Positions 32,930 to 43,004 of a stretch of DNA of 43,004 bases are shown here, in pieces. The stretch spans positions 1 to 43,004 of the forward strand of contig JANSYQ010000028.1 in assembly GCA_024742305.1 (NCBI GenBank), read 5' to 3'. A model generated the notes under the pieces. That model saw only the letters and a program-made list of their open reading frames with translations. It was not told where the DNA came from and made no database searches. The translations under genes and the position numbers were made by a program. The stretch comes from a bacterium. Its GTDB lineage: Bacteria; Bacteroidota; Bacteroidia; Flavobacteriales_D; Crocinitomicaceae. Each line of letters opens with the position of its first letter. Position 1 is the stretch's first letter.

Positions 32930-33085
32930 GTTCTTAAATATTGTGATTCAGTGAATTAATTCCTTTTTTTGTGCAAACAAATTCTACTACTGTAATCAAG
33001 TTTTCTTGTTCGAGTGGTGATTTTTACAGACGGAAAAATGTCACCTCGGTAATTGGACTTGATAACACTAACTAAATCACTCAAG

Positions 33086-35560
33086 ATGTCTAAACAACTT
33101 CTTTTACTCTCTTTCCTTATTGGGGCAACGGTGTCCTATGCACAAAATGTTGGAATCGGTACAAATACGCCGGACCAAAGCGCGAAACTTCAAATTGTCG
33201 ATGCAAACCGCGGACTCTTAATTCCTAATGTATCTATCGGGGATGTAAGTTTGGCAGCGCCCGTTGTGGCTCCAGCAACAGGATTGTTGGTTTGGAACAC
33301 GAATGCAGCGGTAACAGGTGGTAGCGGTACAGGGTATTACTATTGGGATGGTATCGAATGGATAAAGCTGGTGGTAGAATCTGACCTCGCAGGACTTGTT
33401 GATGCCGATGGTGATACAAGAGTGCAAGTCGAAGAAAGTCCCGATGAAGATATCATTCGATTCGATTTACAAGGCGTGGAACGCTTTGTGATGGATAGAG
33501 CAGTTCTGCATACACCCAATTCAGGTCGTTCGGTTTTTATTGGTGAAGAAGCAGGAGATGCCGATGACCTTTCTAATAATAACAATACAGCCATTGGATA
33601 TCAGTCCTTTACTTCTAGCGTAAACTCGGTGAACAATGTTTCCATCGGTTACCAGTCTCAAACGGCTGCCATTGGAGGAACAGGAAATGTTTCAGCAGGT
33701 TCTTTCTCAATGACAACCTTAACAACAGGTGACTACAACGTAGCTGTTGGTATGGCCGCCATGCGATTGACGACTACCGGTTCTTACAATACAGCTCTCG
33801 GGTCGGCTTCTCTATACGATAATACATCCGGGCAACGTAACATCTCAATCGGAACGGCATCCCTTGGGGATAATACCACAGGTAGTTACAACACAGCGAT
33901 TGGAATGCACGCGCTGAGAGAAAATCAAATCGCATCAGAAAATGTTGGGGTTGGTTATCAAGCCGGATACAACAACATACTCGGAGAAAGACTTACGGCC
34001 ATTGGAACACAATCTTTGTTCAATAGCACAGGAAATAACAACACGGCTGTTGGGCACCGAGCAGCCTACACAAATTCTACTGGATATGGAAACTCCGCTT
34101 TCGGGAATGCAGCAATGTATTCAACCACTTCGGGGTATGAAAATGTGGCTATCGGTGACAGCGCAATGTACAGTAATACAACTGGTTTTAGAAACATTGC
34201 TATTGGCCGCGGAGCTCTAGCTACCAACACAACCTCAGATTTTCTTGTGGCCATTGGATACAACGCTTTGAATCAAGCGACAGGCGGAGCGTATTACAAC
34301 GTGGCAGTTGGTGGGCGCTCCATGGAGTCACTAACTACTGGGGATTACAACACAGCAATGGGTTACCAAACCATGCAAGCTGCCACTACAGGACAGTACA
34401 ATGTTGCCATGGGGTACTACACTCTGTCTAACGTAACGACTGGTGGATACAATACCGCTATGGGCGTTCGCGCGCTTTTTGATAACACGACAGGAAGCTA
34501 CAATACTGGCTTGGGATATAACTCGGGATACGACAATATGGCGGGAACGTATAATACATCTGTCGGTTATAGAAGTTTGGAAGACAATGTGGATGGGTTG
34601 TATAATACGGCAATTGGAGCGATGGCTTTGGTGAATAGCGACCAATCCAATAATAATACTGCCGTTGGTTACTACACCTTGTACGATTTGAGCACAGGAA
34701 CGGATAATGCTGTACTAGGATATCGCGCAGCGGAGAATCTTACTACAGGTTATGATAACGTTGTGGTTGGTGCCTCTGCTTTCACTATTGCTACTACCGC
34801 GTATCAAAACGTTGCTATTGGTTACAACACAAATCCAGTGCTAACAGCCGGACATAACAATGTTTCTGTGGGAACATCTGCTAATGAAGATTTAACAACA
34901 GGAGATCATAACATTGCTGTTGGACGGAGAGCAGGAGATAACAACATTTCCGGAAATAGAAACACCACTGTCGGGTATTGGTCGGATTTCAATGCTGATG
35001 GATTCAACAACTCTTCCGCTTTTGGGTATAATTCCCGAATTACGGCATCTAACCAAGTTCGTGTCGGAATTACAACCACAACCAGTATCGGCGGATATGT
35101 TGGATGGACCAACCTGTCTGACGGAAGATTCAAGAAGAATGTTCAGGAAAATGTTGTTGGACTAGATTTTATTATGGGTTTGCGTCCAGTAACGTATCAT
35201 GTTGATTACAGTTCTCTAGACAAGTTTTTAGGAGTATCGGAACGTATGCAAAAAGACGATCCTGAGGGATATTCATCGTTGATTAATGAAAAATCTCAAG
35301 TAATTCAAAGCGGATTCATCGCGCAAGAGGTAGAGGCTTTGGTGAATCAAAACGGTTATGGATTTAACGGTGTAGATGCTCCAGAGAATGCTCTAGATCA
35401 CTACGGATTGCGTTACTCTGAGTTTGTGGTGCCATTAGTTAAAGCAACGCAGGAACAACAAGAAATAATTGAAAATCAGCAAGAGGCAATTGATTTGTTG
35501 CAGAAGCAACTGGATGAATTATCACGTCAAATGGAGCGTTTGAGCGAAGGGGAGAAGTAA
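33086..35560 (+). CDS. Secreted repeat protein with C-terminal S74 intramolecular chaperone domain
   Basis: I chose the ATG at 33086 because it opens directly into a signal peptide (MSKQLLLLSFL..., cleavage near SYA-Q); the upstream in-frame ATG at 33053 adds 11 odd residues. The 824-aa protein starts with NVGIGTNTPD, common in Bacteroidota fibre-like proteins. About 29 units of ~17 residues follow (about 165-665), each built on N-x-A-[IV]-G-Y and ending in TTG, similar to head repeats of trimeric adhesins. Then comes a Peptidase_S74 domain (LSDGRFKKNV with Ser/Lys of the autoprocessing site, GFIAQEVEALV, YSEFVVPLVKA) and a final coiled coil. S74 domains trimerise fibres and then cut themselves off. 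No T9SS domain is present. Confidence 0.85.
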   Translation: MSKQLLLLSFLIGATVSYAQNVGIGTNTPDQSAKLQIVDANRGLLIPNVSIGDVSLAAPVVAPATGLLVWNTNAAVTGGSGTGYYYWDGIEWIKLVVESDLAGLVDADGDTRVQVEESPDEDIIRFDLQGVERFVMDRAVLHTPNSGRSVFIGEEAGDADDLSNNNNTAIGYQSFTSSVNSVNNVSIGYQSQTAAIGGTGNVSAGSFSMTTLTTGDYNVAVGMAAMRLTTTGSYNTALGSASLYDNTSGQRNISIGTASLGDNTTGSYNTAIGMHALRENQIASENVGVGYQAGYNNILGERLTAIGTQSLFNSTGNNNTAVGHRAAYTNSTGYGNSAFGNAAMYSTTSGYENVAIGDSAMYSNTTGFRNIAIGRGALATNTTSDFLVAIGYNALNQATGGAYYNVAVGGRSMESLTTGDYNTAMGYQTMQAATTGQYNVAMGYYTLSNVTTGGYNTAMGVRALFDNTTGSYNTGLGYNSGYDNMAGTYNTSVGYRSLEDNVDGLYNTAIGAMALVNSDQSNNNTAVGYYTLYDLSTGTDNAVLGYRAAENLTTGYDNVVVGASAFTIATTAYQNVAIGYNTNPVLTAGHNNVSVGTSANEDLTTGDHNIAVGRRAGDNNISGNRNTTVGYWSDFNADGFNNSSAFGYNSRITASNQVRVGITTTTSIGGYVGWTNLSDGRFKKNVQENVVGLDFIMGLRPVTYHVDYSSLDKFLGVSERMQKDDPEGYSSLINEKSQVIQSGFIAQEVEALVNQNGYGFNGVDAPENALDHYGLRYSEFVVPLVKATQEQQEIIENQQEAIDLLQKQLDELSRQMERLSEGEK

Positions 35561-35713: not shown

Positions 35714-36310
35714 ATGAAAAACTTACTATTACTGTCAATGCTTTTGATCACCTCTCTGTCATTTTCTCAAGAGAGTTTGGTGTTGCATCTAGTTGATGGG
35801 GGAGAAGTAACTGTAGAAGGTTATCTTATAAGTAATCAAACGACTTATACGTTTCAAACAAGCAGTGGAAAAGATGAAAAAATCAAGAAGAGAGATGTAA
35901 AGGCTATTTCGAGAGATGGAATGATAGGGATCGCAAGTCTTCCAATTACAGGTATGGGAACCTTGACCAAGGTACGTATCGTATTGTATTCCGATGATTA
36001 TGTTTTGGGGGCTTTGGATAGTGAAGATTATACTTGGTTCTATGTTTGGGATCGTGAGTGGAATATAATTGAAAAGAAATTAGATGTGCACCAAGTTTCT
36101 TTCCCAAAAGGAAAGGCTAAGAGACAAGCAGAGGAGAACGTGGAGAACATTAATAAAGTGGCAGAATATTTCTCTGGATGTGATGAAGCCTTTGAGAAAA
36201 TGAAAGAAAACGTTGGGGAGTACAACGACTTTCAAAACGACTTAATGGTTATAAATTGTGGAGCAGAACGAGACTTGCAACTTGAAGATTTTGATAGTTT
36301 ATATGAATAA
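35714..36310 (+). CDS. Small secreted protein of unknown function
   Basis: This 198-aa protein has a clean Sec signal peptide (KNLLLLSMLLITSLSFS, cleavage before QES). The mature N-terminal part (about 20-75) has a small beta-domain reading LHLVDGGEVTVEGYL, YTFQTSSGKDEKIKKRDVKAI, reminiscent of short Sm-like or SH3-like folds in other secreted Bacteroidota proteins. The C-terminal half is helical and charged. I do not recognise a named family. It has its own probable promoter and terminator, so it seems to be a single-gene unit. Confidence 0.7.
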   Translation: MKNLLLLSMLLITSLSFSQESLVLHLVDGGEVTVEGYLISNQTTYTFQTSSGKDEKIKKRDVKAISRDGMIGIASLPITGMGTLTKVRIVLYSDDYVLGALDSEDYTWFYVWDREWNIIEKKLDVHQVSFPKGKAKRQAEENVENINKVAEYFSGCDEAFEKMKENVGEYNDFQNDLMVINCGAERDLQLEDFDSLYE

Positions 36311-36385: not shown

Positions 36386-37117
36386 ATGAAACAAACGGTT
36401 AAAAAGCTGCTTCCTTCTTGGGTTTTGGATCGCTGGATGAAACTTCAGTATCAACGAAAGAGTTCCGTCTATCAAAATCGTGACATTAACCAAGTTTTCA
36501 CGGAGATTTACGAAAAGAATCGTTGGAAGGATAACGAAACGGTTTCGGGTCAGGGTTCAACTTTGACTCAAATGCAACCAATCATTCCGGCAATCGAAGA
36601 AGCGTTTGCTACACTGGAAGTTAAAACTATTTTAGACATTCCTTGTGGCGATTTCAACTGGATGCAACACGTGAACCTCGAGGGAATTGATTACCGCGGT
36701 GCGGACATCGTTGTGGATTTAATAAATCAAAATCAAGCAAAATTTGGAGCCGAGAACATTCATTTTTCTCATCTTGATATAACAAAAGATCAATTACCAA
36801 AATCCGACTTGATACTCAACAAAGATTGCTTTATTCACTTTTCGTACGCGCATATTTATCAAGCCTTACAACGAATCAAAGAAAGTGAATCTCGTTATTT
36901 GATGGGGACTACGTACACCAATCAAACATTGAATTTTGATATCACCACAGGCGATTGGCGACCGTTAAATTTTCAAATTGGGCCTTTCTATTTCCCCAAA
37001 CCAATACTATCCATCACTGAATATTGTGAGCAGCACCTGACAAAAGCACAAAAAGGAAAATCCTTGGTAATTTGGGAAATACAAAAAATTAAATTATCGG
37101 AAAACGGTTATGAATGA
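36386..37117 (+). CDS. Class I SAM-dependent methyltransferase
   Basis: This 243-aa protein has a Rossmann-type methyltransferase core. Motif I is ILDIPCGDFNWM (about 90-101), followed by an acidic strand end (YRGADIVVDLI), a NIHFSHLDIT strand and motif DLILNKDCFIHF. The N-terminal ~70 residues are basic and helical, with an RWKDNETVSGQGS segment seen in methyltransferases of capsule and glycan clusters. The substrate is unknown. It is convergent with the lipid-like operon and overlaps the end of its last gene by 10 bp, so the two cannot both be extended. Confidence 0.85.
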   Translation: MKQTVKKLLPSWVLDRWMKLQYQRKSSVYQNRDINQVFTEIYEKNRWKDNETVSGQGSTLTQMQPIIPAIEEAFATLEVKTILDIPCGDFNWMQHVNLEGIDYRGADIVVDLINQNQAKFGAENIHFSHLDITKDQLPKSDLILNKDCFIHFSYAHIYQALQRIKESESRYLMGTTYTNQTLNFDITTGDWRPLNFQIGPFYFPKPILSITEYCEQHLTKAQKGKSLVIWEIQKIKLSENGYE

Positions 37118-38601
37118 AGGCGGTTTTTCAGCGCCGGATAGTCAATCTTTGAATTGTGTCTTGGGTCCCTTGGGATGTCCAAAATTTTGATTTCATCGTA
37201 CGGGAATTCCAGTTGCTGCTCTCGAACGGTTTCAGGTGAAATAGAACCCTCGATAGTCAGAATCAATTTCGAGTTCACCTTGAGCAAGGTCCCCATGATC
37301 ACCCCCGGAATTTGTTGCAAGCGATTTTCAATGATAAATGGAGAAAGAATGGCTTCTTCGTGTTCAATGAGCTGCTGACATCGCCCCGTAAGGTGAAGCT
37401 GTTCATTTGACAGAAATCCGGAATCACCTGTTCGGTGCCAAATCGTATCCCCACAAACTATCTTGTTCTTCTTGAATGCTTCGTCGTTGTTGAAATAACG
37501 CTTCAATACATGTGGTCCCGCAACGATAATTTCTCCAATGGCTCCATCTTCCTTGGTAAGAGCATCGAGATCTTCACTCGTCGCGGTAGGAATGGCGCCT
37601 TCGCTAATGGAAATTATACGTAATTCGGTTTTATGATATACATGTCCAACGGGCAAACCGTCAGACAATTCGGCTTCTTTACTAACGAGTTCTTTGGCTT
37701 CAATAGAACTTATAGGTTCTGATTCTGTTGATCCGTAAACAATGTTTACTTGTGCATTCGAAAATGCGTTCAAGAGAGTTTTCGCCTGATTAGGGAACAC
37801 AGGAGCGCCGCCGGTGAACACTTTTTCGATTCCATCAAACACAGTGGAGTTGGAGGTTTTTTTTGCAAGTTGCTCCACGACGAAAGGTGAAGCGGTAATT
37901 CTGTTGACTTTGTGCTGTTGAATTTGATGAACCAATTTTTCGGACTCCATCGTTTCCGGTTTCGACATTTTGAAGTCGGCGATAACAGAAGTGCAGCCAA
38001 CTCCGAGGTTTACAAACAGTACAATCGGCAAGACAGGCATGTCGACATCCTCGGGTTTTGGATCAATTTCGTCAATTAATGCGTCGAACTGCTCTTTCAA
38101 AAATCCATGTGTTCGATCGGCTGCTTTGGGTCTTCCAGTACTACCAGTAGTAAAGGTGATCAGCGCAGAGTCATCGTCGGAAACTATCGTAATGGGTTCC
38201 TTTCCCGAATTTTTTTTCTTCATGGATAGTTTGATCGGGATACGACGTAGCTCTTTTGAAAACCATGCGAATATTCGTGCTTTGGGGATGCCGATGAACC
38301 CTTTACAATCCGCGATTTCACAACACAGTTCCAATCGTTTTTTATTAACCCAAGCATCCAAGAAAACGGCCGTAGCTCCGCAATAGAACAAAGCCAAGAC
38401 GATTCGGTAAAGATCCACACTCATCGGAACAAAAACCAGCACTCGGTCTCCCTTTTGTATACCTTTGCTTTTGAAATATGCAGCTGTTTCCAACACATCT
38501 CTTTGAAGTTCTTCATACGTGATGCTTTGCTTAGGGTCAATGATGGCCAGGCGCTCTGGATACGTTTTGGCGGCATCAAGAAAAAGTTGAGAAATATTCA
38601 T
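37108..38601 (-). CDS. OleC-like acyl-adenylate/CoA ligase (ANL superfamily)
   Basis: This 497-aa AMP-forming ligase is the last gene of the five-gene operon, overlapping its neighbour by 4 bp (ATGA). The nucleotide loop is FTTGSTGRPKA, the adenine/aromatic motif YGSTESEPIS, the hinge HRTGDSGF and the C-terminal catalytic Lys485 in NSKIDYP. The segments VLPIVLFVNLGVGCTS and FTGGAPVFPNQ resemble the OleC / fatty-acid ligase branch more than typical acyl-CoA synthetases. It probably activates a fatty or hydroxy-fatty acid as an adenylate. Whether it makes a thioester, an amide precursor or a beta-lactone cannot be told. No oleA, oleB or oleD lies in the window. Confidence 0.85.
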   Translation of the reverse strand: MNISQLFLDAAKTYPERLAIIDPKQSITYEELQRDVLETAAYFKSKGIQKGDRVLVFVPMSVDLYRIVLALFYCGATAVFLDAWVNKKRLELCCEIADCKGFIGIPKARIFAWFSKELRRIPIKLSMKKKNSGKEPITIVSDDDSALITFTTGSTGRPKAADRTHGFLKEQFDALIDEIDPKPEDVDMPVLPIVLFVNLGVGCTSVIADFKMSKPETMESEKLVHQIQQHKVNRITASPFVVEQLAKKTSNSTVFDGIEKVFTGGAPVFPNQAKTLLNAFSNAQVNIVYGSTESEPISSIEAKELVSKEAELSDGLPVGHVYHKTELRIISISEGAIPTATSEDLDALTKEDGAIGEIIVAGPHVLKRYFNNDEAFKKNKIVCGDTIWHRTGDSGFLSNEQLHLTGRCQQLIEHEEAILSPFIIENRLQQIPGVIMGTLLKVNSKLILTIEGSISPETVREQQLEFPYDEIKILDIPRDPRHNSKIDYPALKNRLHS

Positions 38602-39614
38602 AGGCTCATTCCGTATAGCGAGTAGGATTTGTAATGGTCTCCCTCATAATTATTGGAGATGCTCACTGAGTTGTTGTCGTGGATCATTAGTGCGTGAATC
38701 ACTCTTTGAAAATTGCGTTTGGCAGCAATTTGATAGGTTTTCCCAGCCAAATACGAACCAATCCCACGGAAGGGCGTGTCTTTTTTTCTTGCAAGCGACT
38801 TGATAATTAACGTCTTTCCGGAAGCGTCTAAATAATCAGGAATGGAGAAGGAGATCGCTTGAATTTCACCATTTTGATCTTCCACCACCCAAATGAGTTC
38901 AGGATCGAAGTATTTTTTCAACGATGCATACTTCTTTACGAAGTCATCTTCTGCTATCGGTGTGAACAAGAAATTTTCCTGAAACGCCTCGTTATTGAAT
39001 TTCGCAAGTTTTCGGAGGTCGTTTTCAAGGTCGTTAAGGTCCAGTGATCGAAAAACTGCACCATTTTCATTGTAGCGATCTTCCCATTGTGTGATACGCT
39101 CATCATTGAAGACCAATTGCGTATCGAGGTTGGAAATGTAGTTTGAAATCGTCTCGAATCCACAATTTTGCCATAGCTTTCCGTAATAATCGTGGTGATA
39201 CGGTTCCATGAAAAAGTTCGCATGCTCGTTGTGGTCGCTAAATCGGTAGTTGTTCCAAGTCGATCCTTCCATGGGGCCTATCACATATTCAAAGCCCAAT
39301 GATTTACCAACTTTCACCACTTCGTTCAATAGAAATTGAGCCGCTTCTTGATCGTTTATACTTTCAAAACTCCCAATGGTACAGGCTTTTTTCTGCTGGA
39401 AACTTAATCCAGGTTTTACATAAAGCGCACAACGTGCAATCGGAAGATCATCCTCCAACAACACGAAACAATTGTTCAAATGCTCTGATGGAACCGGATC
39501 ATGCCCCAAAATGAAACGTTGACTTTCCTTGGAGTAAAGGCGTTTTGGGACATCTTCAAAATGATGAAAGTCACCTTGATTAGGAAGAGTAGATATAAGT
39601 TGAAAATTACGCAT
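38598..39614 (-). CDS. GNAT-like acyltransferase
   Basis: This 338-aa protein has two GNAT-like halves: the first (about 45-165) with FVLLEDDLPIARCALYV and YVIGPMEGSTWNNYRF, the second (about 220-335) with LIWVVEDQNGEIQAISF, KSLARKKDTPFRGIGSYL (acyl-CoA pyrophosphate-type loop) and IHDNNSVSISNNY. It resembles the uncharacterised YghO-type acyltransferase-like proteins. It would transfer an acyl group to an amine or hydroxyl. It overlaps the kinase gene by 8 bp and the ligase gene by 4 bp, so a shared pathway is very likely: the ligase may supply the acyl donor. Confidence 0.75.
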   Translation of the reverse strand: MRNFQLISTLPNQGDFHHFEDVPKRLYSKESQRFILGHDPVPSEHLNNCFVLLEDDLPIARCALYVKPGLSFQQKKACTIGSFESINDQEAAQFLLNEVVKVGKSLGFEYVIGPMEGSTWNNYRFSDHNEHANFFMEPYHHDYYGKLWQNCGFETISNYISNLDTQLVFNDERITQWEDRYNENGAVFRSLDLNDLENDLRKLAKFNNEAFQENFLFTPIAEDDFVKKYASLKKYFDPELIWVVEDQNGEIQAISFSIPDYLDASGKTLIIKSLARKKDTPFRGIGSYLAGKTYQIAAKRNFQRVIHALMIHDNNSVSISNNYEGDHYKSYSLYGMSL

Positions 39615-40284
39615 AGTTTAAGAAGTATTCAGCAATCATCAAAACAACCGTAGCTGCGAATGGGATGGTAAAGTTATCGTATCCACCGTGAGAAATTCCT
39701 TCCGCAAAAGTGGTGCAAATCGAGAGGGCGAAACCGATAACCACGGCATGAATGAAGGAGTATTGCTCCAAGCCAATTAAAAATGCAAACGAAAGTACAA
39801 ACGCCGCAACTGCAAATCCGAGTGATCCGCTAAGTGTCTTTTTTTGTCGGAAGACAATGTAGGGTTTGTACGGATACTTTTGTCCAACATACGCTGCTAC
39901 CGGATCACATAGTGCCAAGGTTAAAATAGGAATGTAGTACAGCGCGAAATTATCGAAGTAGTTGTAGTTCAGGAAACAACCGTATACAATAATAGGGTAG
40001 AGGATGCTCCCAGTGGTTTTTCGCTTCACGGCGTTGATCGATGGCAATAACTTCAGTGGCCAACTGGCGATCAAAATCAATAAGAAACTTGCGCATAACG
40101 CTAGTACGGACCAATGATTTTCTAGCATCGGCGGAAAGAGGAGCGTTAAAATACCTGTCGATATGTGGACAATCTTGCGTGTAACCTCCGCATGATAATT
40201 GAAGCGATGATACAACAACTCAGCCACTGCAAACAGGACCAAAAACGCTGTCCCTAAAACCCCTATGTTAATCCAATTTGTCAC
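39607..40284 (-). CDS. CTP-dependent lipid alcohol kinase-like membrane protein (SEC59/DGK1/VTE5 family)
   Basis: This 225-aa protein with about seven membrane helices starts at GTG, overlapping the upstream stop (GTGA). Family signatures are RKIVHISTGIL (first loop), CDPVAAYVGQ, RQKKTLSGSLG and EGISHGGYDNFTIPF, as in dolichol kinase, yeast diacylglycerol kinase Dgk1 and phytol kinase VTE5, which use CTP. It may phosphorylate diacylglycerol or a polyprenol, or handle CDP-activated lipids; automated annotation often calls such genes phosphatidate cytidylyltransferase. It is third in the operon, between the BtaA-like and acyltransferase genes. Confidence 0.85.
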   Translation of the reverse strand: MTNWINIGVLGTAFLVLFAVAELLYHRFNYHAEVTRKIVHISTGILTLLFPPMLENHWSVLALCASFLLILIASWPLKLLPSINAVKRKTTGSILYPIIVYGCFLNYNYFDNFALYYIPILTLALCDPVAAYVGQKYPYKPYIVFRQKKTLSGSLGFAVAAFVLSFAFLIGLEQYSFIHAVVIGFALSICTTFAEGISHGGYDNFTIPFAATVVLMIAEYFLNYA

Positions 40285-41369
40285 GAGTCTTTTTTATCAA
40301 TTTGAAGTCCCATGTAGAAGAATCCATTGTCCTTCTGAATCAATGACTTTGTCAGTTCCGATTCACTTTCAACACCTGAAATCATCTTATGGATTTTTCT
40401 AGGGACCATTAAGTTCCAATAGGCAATTCGAGCGTTGGAGGAACTGTTATCCACGATGTTTTGAGCGACTTGTTCAAATAAATCCATCGGCATATATTCG
40501 AAAATGTTGGAAAGATTGAATTTCGAAAAATTCTGATATTCTTCAAAGGCTTGTTCAGCCAATCCATTAAAAACCAAGAGACTGTCCAAATTGGATTTGA
40601 TTTTTTCGAAGTTTTCTTTTCGTGCGTAATGTGGCAGAAAGTCGCCGAATTCTCCTTTCATAATGAAATGAAGAAAGTAGTTGTTCTGTGCGTTGATATG
40701 ACTCAGGTGTGCTGCAGCTTGTCCTAAAATAAATTCCGAGACTACGACATCTACTTCTTTCAGAAAGGCAGGATCGCGCCCGAAGCGTCCCATTACAAAC
40801 TTGCTGAAAAACAGTTTGAACAAAAGTCTCCATCGGCGGTTGTTCCATTTTTTGTGGAAGAAGGCAGCTTGTTCTTCGGCCGTTTTTCCTTCAAAGAGTC
40901 GGTTCACGCGCTTTTTTGTGTGAACGAGAGGTAAAATCCTTCTCCGGAACAGGCGGAAGTACCGCTCAAACTTGCCTTGAAAAATTATTCCGTCGGTAAT
41001 TTCTTGCTCTCTCGATGACCAAAATACTTGTAACTCGTCTGAGAGGGCGGTCTTTACTTTTTCAAACAATTGTATTCTACGTGTGGAGGCTGCAAAGCCG
41101 AGAAACTCAAGAAACTCTTCGTATTCCAGCGTCGCAAAGGCTGCTTTTTTCAGTTCAATGAGATGCAACTGTATGGCATTGATGTCTACTGCAACCACTA
41201 TTTCCGGACCTTTTGAAAGTAGCGAAAAGCTATTGTCTCCCGCCGATCCAATGGAGAGTACGCGATCGCCGGAAGTGATGTTCAATCCTTCCAAAAGCAC
41301 GTCGGCATCTTCCCAGCAATTGGCGTAACGAATGTAGTCGTGTTGCACGTTGTTTAACTGTTCTTTCAT
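40281..41369 (-). CDS. BtaA/DUF3419-like 3-amino-3-carboxypropyl transferase
   Basis: I chose the ATG at 41369; an in-frame TTG at 41390 would overlap the previous gene by 11 bp. The 362-aa protein has the DUF3419 pattern: YIRYANCWEDADVLL, a SAM-binding loop DRVLSIGSAGDNSFSLL, VAVDINAIQLHLIELK and a C-terminal IFEYMP(M)D strand-helix with an AYWNLMVPR end. In Rhodobacter, BtaA moves the 3-amino-3-carboxypropyl group of SAM onto diacylglycerol to give a homoserine lipid. No BtaB methyltransferase is in the operon, so the product, if this chemistry applies, would stay unmethylated or be modified otherwise, for example by N-acylation. Confidence 0.85.
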   Translation of the reverse strand: MKEQLNNVQHDYIRYANCWEDADVLLEGLNITSGDRVLSIGSAGDNSFSLLSKGPEIVVAVDINAIQLHLIELKKAAFATLEYEEFLEFLGFAASTRRIQLFEKVKTALSDELQVFWSSREQEITDGIIFQGKFERYFRLFRRRILPLVHTKKRVNRLFEGKTAEEQAAFFHKKWNNRRWRLLFKLFFSKFVMGRFGRDPAFLKEVDVVVSEFILGQAAAHLSHINAQNNYFLHFIMKGEFGDFLPHYARKENFEKIKSNLDSLLVFNGLAEQAFEEYQNFSKFNLSNIFEYMPMDLFEQVAQNIVDNSSSNARIAYWNLMVPRKIHKMISGVESESELTKSLIQKDNGFFYMGLQIDKKDS

Positions 41370-41379
41370 AGCTTCGTTG

Positions 41380-43004
41380 TTATTTCTCAACCACTTTAAT
41401 TTCTCCTGTGCTTCCGTCCATAATTACTTCATTTCCGGATTTCAGCGTACGTAATAGTCCGGTTACGCTGACAATGCATGGAATTCCCATCTCTCTAGAA
41501 ACGATGGCAGAATGGCTAAGCAAACTACCGCGTTCTACAATGATGGCAGAGGCCGTGGGAAAGAGGGTTACCCAACCGGGATCGGTACTAGAAGTGACCA
41601 AAATGTCTCCGTTCAAGGAATCTATTTCGTTCGGATCTTTTACTACACGAACTTTTGCCTGAACACGACCCGGACAACAGCCAATTCCTGATAAATCGCC
41701 TTCGATAGGTTCCATTTTCTCGGTTGAATAAATGTACTCGTCAGAAAAATTATTTCCATAAGTGAAGAATCGTTCCTCAGGATCACGTTGTTCTTGGTAT
41801 TCGGCAAACTCCGCTTTTCGCGCAGAAATAGTTGCTTTGATATCGTCCGGTAGAGGAGACTTTTGTAGTTGAAGAATTTCATCCAGTTCCAAGTAGAATA
41901 CATCTCTTGGATGATCAATACTGCCATCGCTTGCCAAACGTTCGCCAAGGTGTGAAAACATGGTTCGGACCATTCCAAATCCGCGGGTACGTTCGTAGCG
42001 CAAATTTTCGCGGTTGCTCACCAAATCCCGTGCTTTTTTCAATGCATATCGGAACCACCAACGCTTGATTGGCTTTCCTTTTAGTTTGGCATTCATGCGT
42101 TCTTCAGCATCTTGGCGCAACGTATCTTCAATGTTTTCGGTCCCATGTCGTTCCGTAATTCCTTGCTCTACATACGATTTGATTACCTTAATGAACAAGG
42201 TAGGATCTTGACCGTGGGAAATAGTTTCCAACTTCAATTCCCCCACACAGCGATTGCCAAATAAATGAATGTAGGTATCAATTTCTTCCTTGATTTTGGG
42301 GAACTGTCCATCCGACAGAGCAGACCAAATATCCTTCGGATTGTTCTCTGTGAACAATGCCTTACATTCTTTATCAGCAGAAATATTACGCGAAATGGAC
42401 ATACTGCGGTGAATCGGCTCCACCGAAATAATGTCCTGACTTCCACAAAGTAGATCGTTATGAATATTCGGTTCTTCAGGACACCATTTGCTGGTTTGTT
42501 TTTGTAAAATTCCAAACCAAATCATCGCGAAGAAATCATTGATCAACGGTGCTTTCCACTTGAGCAGTAAAGTTTGTTCAAATCGGGCGTAATGTGATGC
42601 GATTTCCTGCGGAGTCATTTGGCTGTAATCCATAGCTTGGTACTCCGACATAATGGTTTCCAATTGTGCGAGGAAACGATCGCGTTCTTTGGGTAACCGT
42701 CGCTGCAGTCGAATCATTTTGAAAAGCATTCCAACGATACGCATTCGTGCCAACCCCTTACTCATTTGATAATCTTCCTTCAGTTCAAAACGCTCTTTTA
42801 CGCCCATCATGTTTTCCATGAACTCAGCATTGATGGAGTAGCCCGGAAGCATTGCGAGCATTTTGTACCAACTGAGCAAATTGTAGTAGACACGCCCACG
42901 AACCAGTCCAAGCGTGTTGGCAAAAACGTCCTTGTGCCGATCTATTTCGTGCTCCTTGACACCAAGCAGACCTACAAATTGGCGGTACACCATTTCGTAC
43001 ATCT
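41380..43004 (-). CDS. PEP-synthase-like phosphotransferase, C-terminal part (5' truncated by window edge)
   Basis: The frame runs off the window; the ATG at 43002 looks internal because the following text (GRVYYNLLSWYKMLAMLPG) matches the middle of pyruvate-phosphate dikinase / PEP-synthase-like proteins, so an ATP-grasp domain probably lies upstream. The visible 541 residues end with a swivelling phosphohistidine domain: VTSSTDPGWVTLFPTA, then RGSLLSHSAIVSREMGIPC with the likely phospho-His at codon 41512-41514. Such enzymes pass the beta-phosphate of ATP via His to a small substrate or antibiotic. It is the first visible gene of the operon, 10 bp before the BtaA-like ATG. Confidence 0.85.
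   Translation of the reverse strand, partial: MYEMVYRQFVGLLGVKEHEIDRHKDVFANTLGLVRGRVYYNLLSWYKMLAMLPGYSINAEFMENMMGVKERFELKEDYQMSKGLARMRIVGMLFKMIRLQRRLPKERDRFLAQLETIMSEYQAMDYSQMTPQEIASHYARFEQTLLLKWKAPLINDFFAMIWFGILQKQTSKWCPEEPNIHNDLLCGSQDIISVEPIHRSMSISRNISADKECKALFTENNPKDIWSALSDGQFPKIKEEIDTYIHLFGNRCVGELKLETISHGQDPTLFIKVIKSYVEQGITERHGTENIEDTLRQDAEERMNAKLKGKPIKRWWFRYALKKARDLVSNRENLRYERTRGFGMVRTMFSHLGERLASDGSIDHPRDVFYLELDEILQLQKSPLPDDIKATISARKAEFAEYQEQRDPEERFFTYGNNFSDEYIYSTEKMEPIEGDLSGIGCCPGRVQAKVRVVKDPNEIDSLNGDILVTSSTDPGWVTLFPTASAIIVERGSLLSHSAIVSREMGIPCIVSVTGLLRTLKSGNEVIMDGSTGEIKVVEK

Follow-up and report, generated by a model that had tools for sequence, protein, structure and literature searches.

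A seven-gene, apparently mobile operon of aquatic Bacteroidota as a candidate pathway for an undescribed lipid with an amino-acid-type group

The right end of contig C38 of genome G000, a member of the Crocinitomicaceae, carries five minus-strand genes that join two genes on a second contig to make a seven-gene operon; the window analysed is the whole of C38 (JANSYQ010000028.1, 43,004 bases), and its right end cuts one of the five. The operon encodes a class I HMG-CoA reductase (HMGR), a divergent UbiA-family protein, a relative of phosphoenolpyruvate (PEP) synthase (here PEPS), a BtaA-like DUF3419 protein, a CdsA/DGK1-type membrane protein, a tandem-GNAT acyltransferase and an ANL adenylating enzyme. 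That the seven genes form one conserved pathway is well supported. We put at about even the probability that this apparently mobile operon encodes a single dedicated route to a hitherto undescribed membrane lipid or prenyl-lipid bearing an amino-acid-type group, and a product that is lipid-type in some form is likely. The gene set and its conservation, the class and orphan status of HMGR, the lack of an adjoining BtaB gene and the domain assignments were computed directly.

The five open reading frames (ORFs) of the window, between 37108 and 43004, were confirmed in the ORF list with the packing that an earlier, sequence-only reading had described: overlaps of 4 bp between the ANL and GNAT genes, 8 bp between GNAT and the kinase-like gene and 4 bp between that gene and DUF3419, and a single 10-bp gap between DUF3419, whose start was placed by alignment at the ATG at 41369 in preference to the TTG at 41390, and PEPS.

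37108..38601, minus strand: ANL adenylating enzyme, OleC/PRK09274-like (PF00501, AMP-binding, 1.9e-44)
38598..39614, minus strand: tandem-GNAT acyltransferase (AlphaFold model)
39607..40284, minus strand: membrane protein of CdsA/DGK1/SEC59/VTE5 type, putative CTP-dependent lipid-alcohol kinase (CTP_transf_1, 23.9 bits)
40281..41369, minus strand: BtaA-like DUF3419 protein, putative S-adenosylmethionine (SAM):acceptor 3-amino-3-carboxypropyl transferase (PF11899, 1.5e-68)
41380..43004, minus strand: ATP-grasp/phosphohistidine dikinase-like PEPS, C-terminal 540 aa (PF00391, 4.9e-24)

Those genes are real, but the sequence-only reading, in calling a five-gene operon, missed two that change the chemistry, HMGR and UbiA, because they lie beyond the contig end. 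It had suggested looking for the rest of the operon past position 43004, and the operon does go on: a full-length PEPS relative from a plasmid, used as query, located the missing N-terminus right where contig C6 ends, and a gene just before it was identified as UbiA by a family search.

L040:12227-13501: HMGR, class I (ORF call; PF00368, 4.2e-121)
L040:13503-14435: UbiA, divergent (ORF call; PF01040)
L040:14372-15397: N-terminal part of PEPS, running off the end of C6

Aligned to the intact orthologue at locus L018, the two pieces of PEPS cover residues 1-322 and 321-860, and the ends of C6 and C38 share 8 identical bases. We therefore infer that the operon runs HMGR-UbiA-PEPS-DUF3419-kinase-GNAT-ANL, a continuity bridged by alignment and not read through.

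The gene set recurs in 23 loci, 15 of them among 99 relatives (the source genome included), 7 more from 395 evenly drawn Bacteroidota and 1 on an alphaproteobacterial plasmid, so that its carriers are scattered aquatic bacteria, mainly Bacteroidota. All seven genes lie on one contig in 17 loci (with the ANL gene of L025 and the HMGR gene of L017 cut by a contig end), five loci are cut by contig ends, and one, in G088, is split. Among the relatives, 15 of 99 have the DUF3419 protein, again counting the source genome. The other 14 loci keep the same neighbour order up to the ends of their contigs, some with additional genes in between; G088 is the exception. HMGR stands immediately before UbiA wherever both are seen, except at L024; in G041 the HMGR-UbiA pair lies at the end of contig C205 (L077), consistent with a break in the assembly. 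A scan of genome contigs gave only three close relatives. In the phylum sample, a UbiA profile at E<=1e-20 matched 9 of 395 genomes including the source, and seven of the eight others have all seven genes; DUF3419 was present in 9/9 cluster-UbiA genomes versus 46/395 across the sample. Order may change while the set stays whole, as at L091-L094 (GNAT-ANL-HMGR-UbiA-PEPS-DUF3419-kinase). Pairwise identities of the seven proteins correlate at r 0.83-0.97 across the 16 loci with all seven proteins called (L027, whose kinase ORF was uncalled, was left out), a figure that is uncorrected for species relatedness and partly reflects it. Distant UbiA matches also occur in the non-carriers G028 and G032, at 25% and 23% identity.

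The expectation that the five families would co-occur thus holds: they form one unit in scattered Bacteroidota and on one plasmid, and homologues dispersed through related genomes were not the pattern found, with the exception of G088. A described pathway with the seven-gene set was likewise not found in the open-access literature searched, among the matches listed and with part of the queries directed at single enzymes, in keeping with what had been claimed for the gene set. The plasmid, from Roseinatronobacter sp. S2 (NZ_CP121116.1), has the same gene order, with HMGR spanning the record start, and in the DUF3419 tree its copy stands beside loci of one distant Bacteroidota family (100/98, long branch). 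This position, the patchy distribution and the plasmid carriage suggest that the whole cassette moved by horizontal transfer. Plasmid searches with DUF3419 gave four records, one with the cassette and the others from Rhizobium and two from Shinella, and with UbiA a single record. Relatives of PEPS on Streptomyces plasmids (L041, L042) lie near AfsA-hotdog and isoprenylcysteine-methyltransferase-type genes; these AfsA-type neighbourhoods are unlike the cassette.

HMGR is regarded as the committed step of the mevalonate pathway and is a key enzyme of the cholesterol pathway. Of the 99 relatives 39 have a match to it, among them all of the 15 carriers but G004. The search for mevalonate-diphosphate decarboxylase (MVD) covered 24 genomes: the 15 carriers, 7 non-carriers that have an HMGR, and 2 more. 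It gave no match in 14 of the 15 carriers, as against matches in six of the seven HMGR-bearing non-carriers, every match scoring 162-169 bits, under the curated 171.35; the seventh, G068, had no match. DXR is present in 13 of the 15 carriers. Because MVD is absent from 14 of 15 carriers, it is well supported that HMGR acts outside isoprenoid supply in them, and a mevalonate-pathway operon is rejected for those 14. The source HMGR scores 333.5 bits against the class I model TIGR00533 (cut-off 441.8, not reached) versus 66.6 against the class II model, and the cluster HMGRs of L029 and L091 score as class I likewise. Class II enzymes are the second HMGR of G091, 1.1 kb from its MVD, and the HMGR of G019, whose mevalonate-type surroundings were judged by eye. 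The nearest solved relative is 6hr7, which we take to be archaeal, and the stretches TTEGALVAS, DKK, GDA and AH..LGR, presumably catalytic, are conserved. Lone HMGRs, 55-61% identical to the cluster enzyme, stand without other cluster genes in the stretches read at L068-L071 (G068, G084, G078 and G074); that of G068 is class I, in a genome with DXR and without an MVD match. At L074 and L075 (G037 and G052), HMGR fusions of 765 and 769 aa lie near thymidylate-kinase-like ORFs (by eye) and a PEPS-like gene.

In the pathway that we propose, the class I HMGR would reduce HMG-CoA, or else a related CoA ester, and so yield mevalonate or a comparable alcohol. As almost all carriers resemble organisms of the methylerythritol phosphate (MEP) route, this alcohol would be a building block and would not be passed on to isopentenyl diphosphate. 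The divergent UbiA protein would attach a lipid chain, prenyl or otherwise; the resulting lipid alcohol would be phosphorylated or activated by PEPS and the CdsA/DGK1-type membrane protein, and in some lineages a CarS/CdsA and CDP-alcohol phosphotransferase pair would then add a polar head to it. The DUF3419 enzyme would add a 3-amino-3-carboxypropyl group from SAM, and the ANL enzyme would activate an acid that the tandem GNAT would transfer to an amine. We infer every reaction, the reaction order and the product; that mevalonate is a building block, and how the steps follow one another, is a tentative conjecture. A bolder proposal, which we consider doubtful, is a new type of membrane lipid in MEP-pathway bacteria: mevalonate from a dedicated class I HMGR would be used directly as a structural block, an atypical UbiA would join it to a prenyl or alkyl chain, it would also be joined to an aminocarboxypropyl group derived from SAM, and the cassette would have passed between phyla. 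The sequence-only reading had proposed a lipid pathway with an aminocarboxypropyl head; its lipid part holds, and the head group is putative, the DUF3419 protein belonging to a separate clade without BtaB.

Several observations weigh against the pathway as drawn. One carrier, G091, has MVD and a second HMGR in addition to DXR, and two carriers lack DXR, both in incomplete assemblies (G006, 82% complete; G088, 71%). A search for HMGS was positive in 1 of 20 genomes; since G061 and G037, both MVD-bearing, also scored negative, the search is unreliable and its result was set aside. The HMGR-UbiA pair of G088 lies on another contig (L076), where PEPS does not follow, and neither HMGR nor a cluster-type UbiA was found in G004, an 89%-complete assembly in which the contig starts inside PEPS. 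In the UbiA protein the second Asp motif is altered, to R202-K203 (invariant in the 11 aligned sequences) and E210, and prenyl transfer from a diphosphate is therefore not assured; motif I is conserved as D-E-x-K-D-x3-D. The kinase-like protein has an AF2 model (pLDDT 89) whose top three Foldseek matches are CDP-diacylglycerol synthetase (probability 1.00), but nothing was matched at E<=0.001 and the best structural match is modest (E 5.2e-3, TM 0.41, rmsd 9.4). Among nine of its relatives none matched CTP_transf_1, eight having no Pfam match at E<=0.05 and one a weak match to DUF3522; sequence search gave no solved relative. Its own CTP_transf_1 score falls just short of the cut-off of 24, so the label of CTP-dependent lipid-alcohol kinase is a weak, putative one. 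In the variant cluster described below, HMGR, the CdsA-type kinase and ANL were not seen in the stretch read.

Genes beside the cluster point to a phosphorylated lipid alcohol, sometimes made into a phospholipid, together with an amino-acid-type modification. At L023, L024 and L026 the cluster contains or adjoins a CDP-alcohol phosphotransferase gene together with a CdsA or CarS-like one, and L027 has genes of matching size at the matching place. Between GNAT and ANL stands a Polyketide_cyc2/lipid-transport-type protein at L024 (below cut-off), L025 and L026 (Pfam), L027 (by position), and L088 and L089 (BLAST). One locus departs further:

L095:5738-14635: variant cluster of UbiA, PEPS, GNAT, DUF3419, a YegS-type lipid kinase, a phosphatidylserine decarboxylase and an NAD_binding_4/thioester-reductase-type enzyme

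In this one case the lipid kinase could take the place of the CdsA-type protein and the reductase that of HMGR; isopentenyl diphosphate isomerase and a polyprenyl synthase are close by. A polyprenyl synthase also comes right after ANL at L021, where it may be an ordinary neighbour, since DnaG is next in line.

One possibility is that the cassette is a specialised-metabolite cluster whose product, such as a meroterpenoid or a prenylated amino acid, diffuses instead of entering the membrane. We regard this as unlikely, although it accommodates the patchy distribution and plasmid carriage, the P450 that adjoins ANL at L030 and a Rhizobium plasmid on which KAS III and CoF-synthetase genes lie near a highly divergent DUF3419 gene (L044:3962-5035). 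It would also make sense of the resemblance of PEPS to the prodigiosin-type ligases PigC and RedH, at 306.7-310.6 bits and below cut-off. No recurring transporter or regulator was seen in the cluster loci, however, by eye and in no dedicated test, and several loci carry phospholipid-type enzymes. PEPS also falls below the cut-off of NF004881 (485.7 bits; 883 needed). The intact orthologue at L018 aligns, His loop included, to 5hv2, named 'PEP synthase' in the PDB and presumably a rifampin phosphotransferase. In PEP synthase proper, a phosphohistidine domain is followed by a C-terminal PEP/pyruvate barrel; unlike it, and in the same order as 5hv2, PEPS has its His domain at 465-533 of 540 with no domain after it.

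An archaeal-type isoprenoid ether lipid, with UbiA as digeranylgeranylglyceryl phosphate (DGGGP) synthase, the CdsA-type protein as CTP transferase and HMGR as the source of isoprenoid, is quite improbable. We know of no DUF3419, ANL or GNAT step in that pathway. CarS-like genes and CDP-alcohol phosphotransferases would fit it, as would the polyprenyl synthases at L021 and L095, but the CarS-like genes were seen at two loci only (L023 and L024), and an HMGR without MVD could not supply isoprenoid. PcrB/GGGPS, present in 13 of 15 carriers, would fit as well, but it is found in 83 of the 99 relatives, carrier or not, and showed no clear association with the cluster. In the case of UbiA, the source protein passes PF01040 (37.3 bits, cut-off 34.2), and its solved relatives include chlorophyll synthase (5.9e-5) and, after it, DGGGP synthase (E 0.002). 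It has no match at E<=0.05 to models for geranylgeranyl transfer to geranylgeranylglyceryl phosphate, however, the plasmid UbiA reaches 24.5 of 296 and 24.8 of 353 bits against DGGGP synthase models, and the second Asp motif is altered. Archaeal-type ether lipid genes occur in bacteria of the FCB group (PMC7852524) and share with the cluster a UbiA-superfamily enzyme, CTP transferases and an isoprenoid theme; the difference is that PcrB shows no clear link to the cluster and the cluster UbiA lies below the DGGGP synthase cut-offs.

Less probable still is a betaine lipid of the DGTS type, for which BtaA would make diacylglyceryl-homoserine, a methyltransferase elsewhere would complete it and the other genes would be accessory. 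DUF3419 is the BtaA domain, which the cluster protein matches strongly and with a SAM-binding-type motif. A BtaB-like methyltransferase adjoins DUF3419 in 20/20 non-cluster loci (the 20 best-scoring of 37) but in none of 25 cluster sequences, which represent 24 loci, with the source locus as two pieces and L095 counted. Two of the 20 loci supplied the BtaB queries, L106 and L108 are only 30-33% alike, and four of the non-cluster methyltransferases were confirmed by Pfam. In a DUF3419 tree without any biochemically characterised BtaA, a 100/100 branch, to which a long-branch warning applies, splits the cluster proteins from btaAB proteins, and the source protein is 24.6% identical to a btaAB-type BtaA. 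A plain betaine-lipid operon is rejected on these grounds; it would also leave HMGR, UbiA, PEPS and ANL unexplained among the six further conserved enzymes of the cluster. By this tree the cluster DUF3419 protein is a separate BtaA-like subfamily, which probably still moves an aminocarboxypropyl group; because the clade is separate and lacks BtaB, its acceptor may be other than diacylglycerol. No solved relative of the DUF3419 protein was found at a useful E-value (best 0.063).

That HMGR boosts isoprenoid supply for a prenylated compound, through a mevalonate route missed by the searches, is the least probable alternative, a highly improbable one: HMGR does precede UbiA directly, bar L024, and G091 holds a mevalonate-type locus, but G091 alone of 15 carriers has MVD against six of seven HMGR-bearing non-carriers, DXR is nearly general in carriers, and the cluster HMGR is class I, as opposed to the class II enzymes beside mevalonate genes.

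The dedicated lipid-type pathway that we prefer resembles several known systems in part. Three of the five window proteins (ANL, DUF3419 and PEPS) pass their Pfam cut-offs; the GNAT protein has no Pfam match and was assigned as a tandem GNAT fold from its AlphaFold model. The earlier family calls are thus borne out for these four, and the kinase call stops just below its threshold. OleC beta-lactone synthetase is also an ANL enzyme, and OleC models are among the best NCBIfam matches of the cluster ANL, which nevertheless reaches only 196.8 bits of 900 for NF045786 and 182.9 of 850 for another OleC-type model; it scores 341.5 bits against NF006754 (cut-off 478), and no solved relative was found at E<=1e-20. 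Ornithine and glutamine aminolipids (OlsBA/GlsBA) rely on GNAT N-acylation of an amino-acid head, which the proposed GNAT step would parallel; the cluster GNAT is tandem, in contrast, and no OlsA/PlsC-type acyltransferase was recognised among the seven proteins. The plant VTE5-VTE6-VTE2 tocopherol prenyl route pairs a CdsA-like lipid-alcohol kinase with a UbiA enzyme, a combination that the cluster may share, without an aromatic-precursor gene and with the second UbiA motif altered; to our knowledge, that route has no counterpart of HMGR, DUF3419, PEPS, GNAT or ANL. The ebo cluster, which includes UbiA-297/EboC and occurs in Flavobacteria, is likewise a conserved bacterial operon with a UbiA protein and a product given as unknown (PMC9235831); its partner genes are others, and the source UbiA, at 13.6 bits, stays below the EboC cut-off of 250.

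Elsewhere in the window, a weak SAM-methyltransferase homologue at 36386-37117 on the plus strand converges on the operon and overlaps the 3' end of ANL by 10 bp. In tblastn at E<=1e-5, neither it nor the ORF at 35714-36310 was matched in any fetched locus longer than 6 kb, and both were rejected as members of the system. At 33053-35560 (plus strand) lies a long protein of repeated 'TGxYNTAxG'-type units, recognised by eye, with a tail that we take, also by eye, to resemble an intramolecular-chaperone-type end.

Where HMGR partners lipid-type enzymes and MVD is not found, as in 14 of 15 carriers, the implication is that mevalonate, or HMGR itself, serves some purpose other than isoprenoid supply. 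The cassette offers a handle on what may be an undescribed lipid of aquatic Bacteroidota, and equally on what DUF3419, PEPS-like and atypical UbiA proteins do, whose present annotations are generic.

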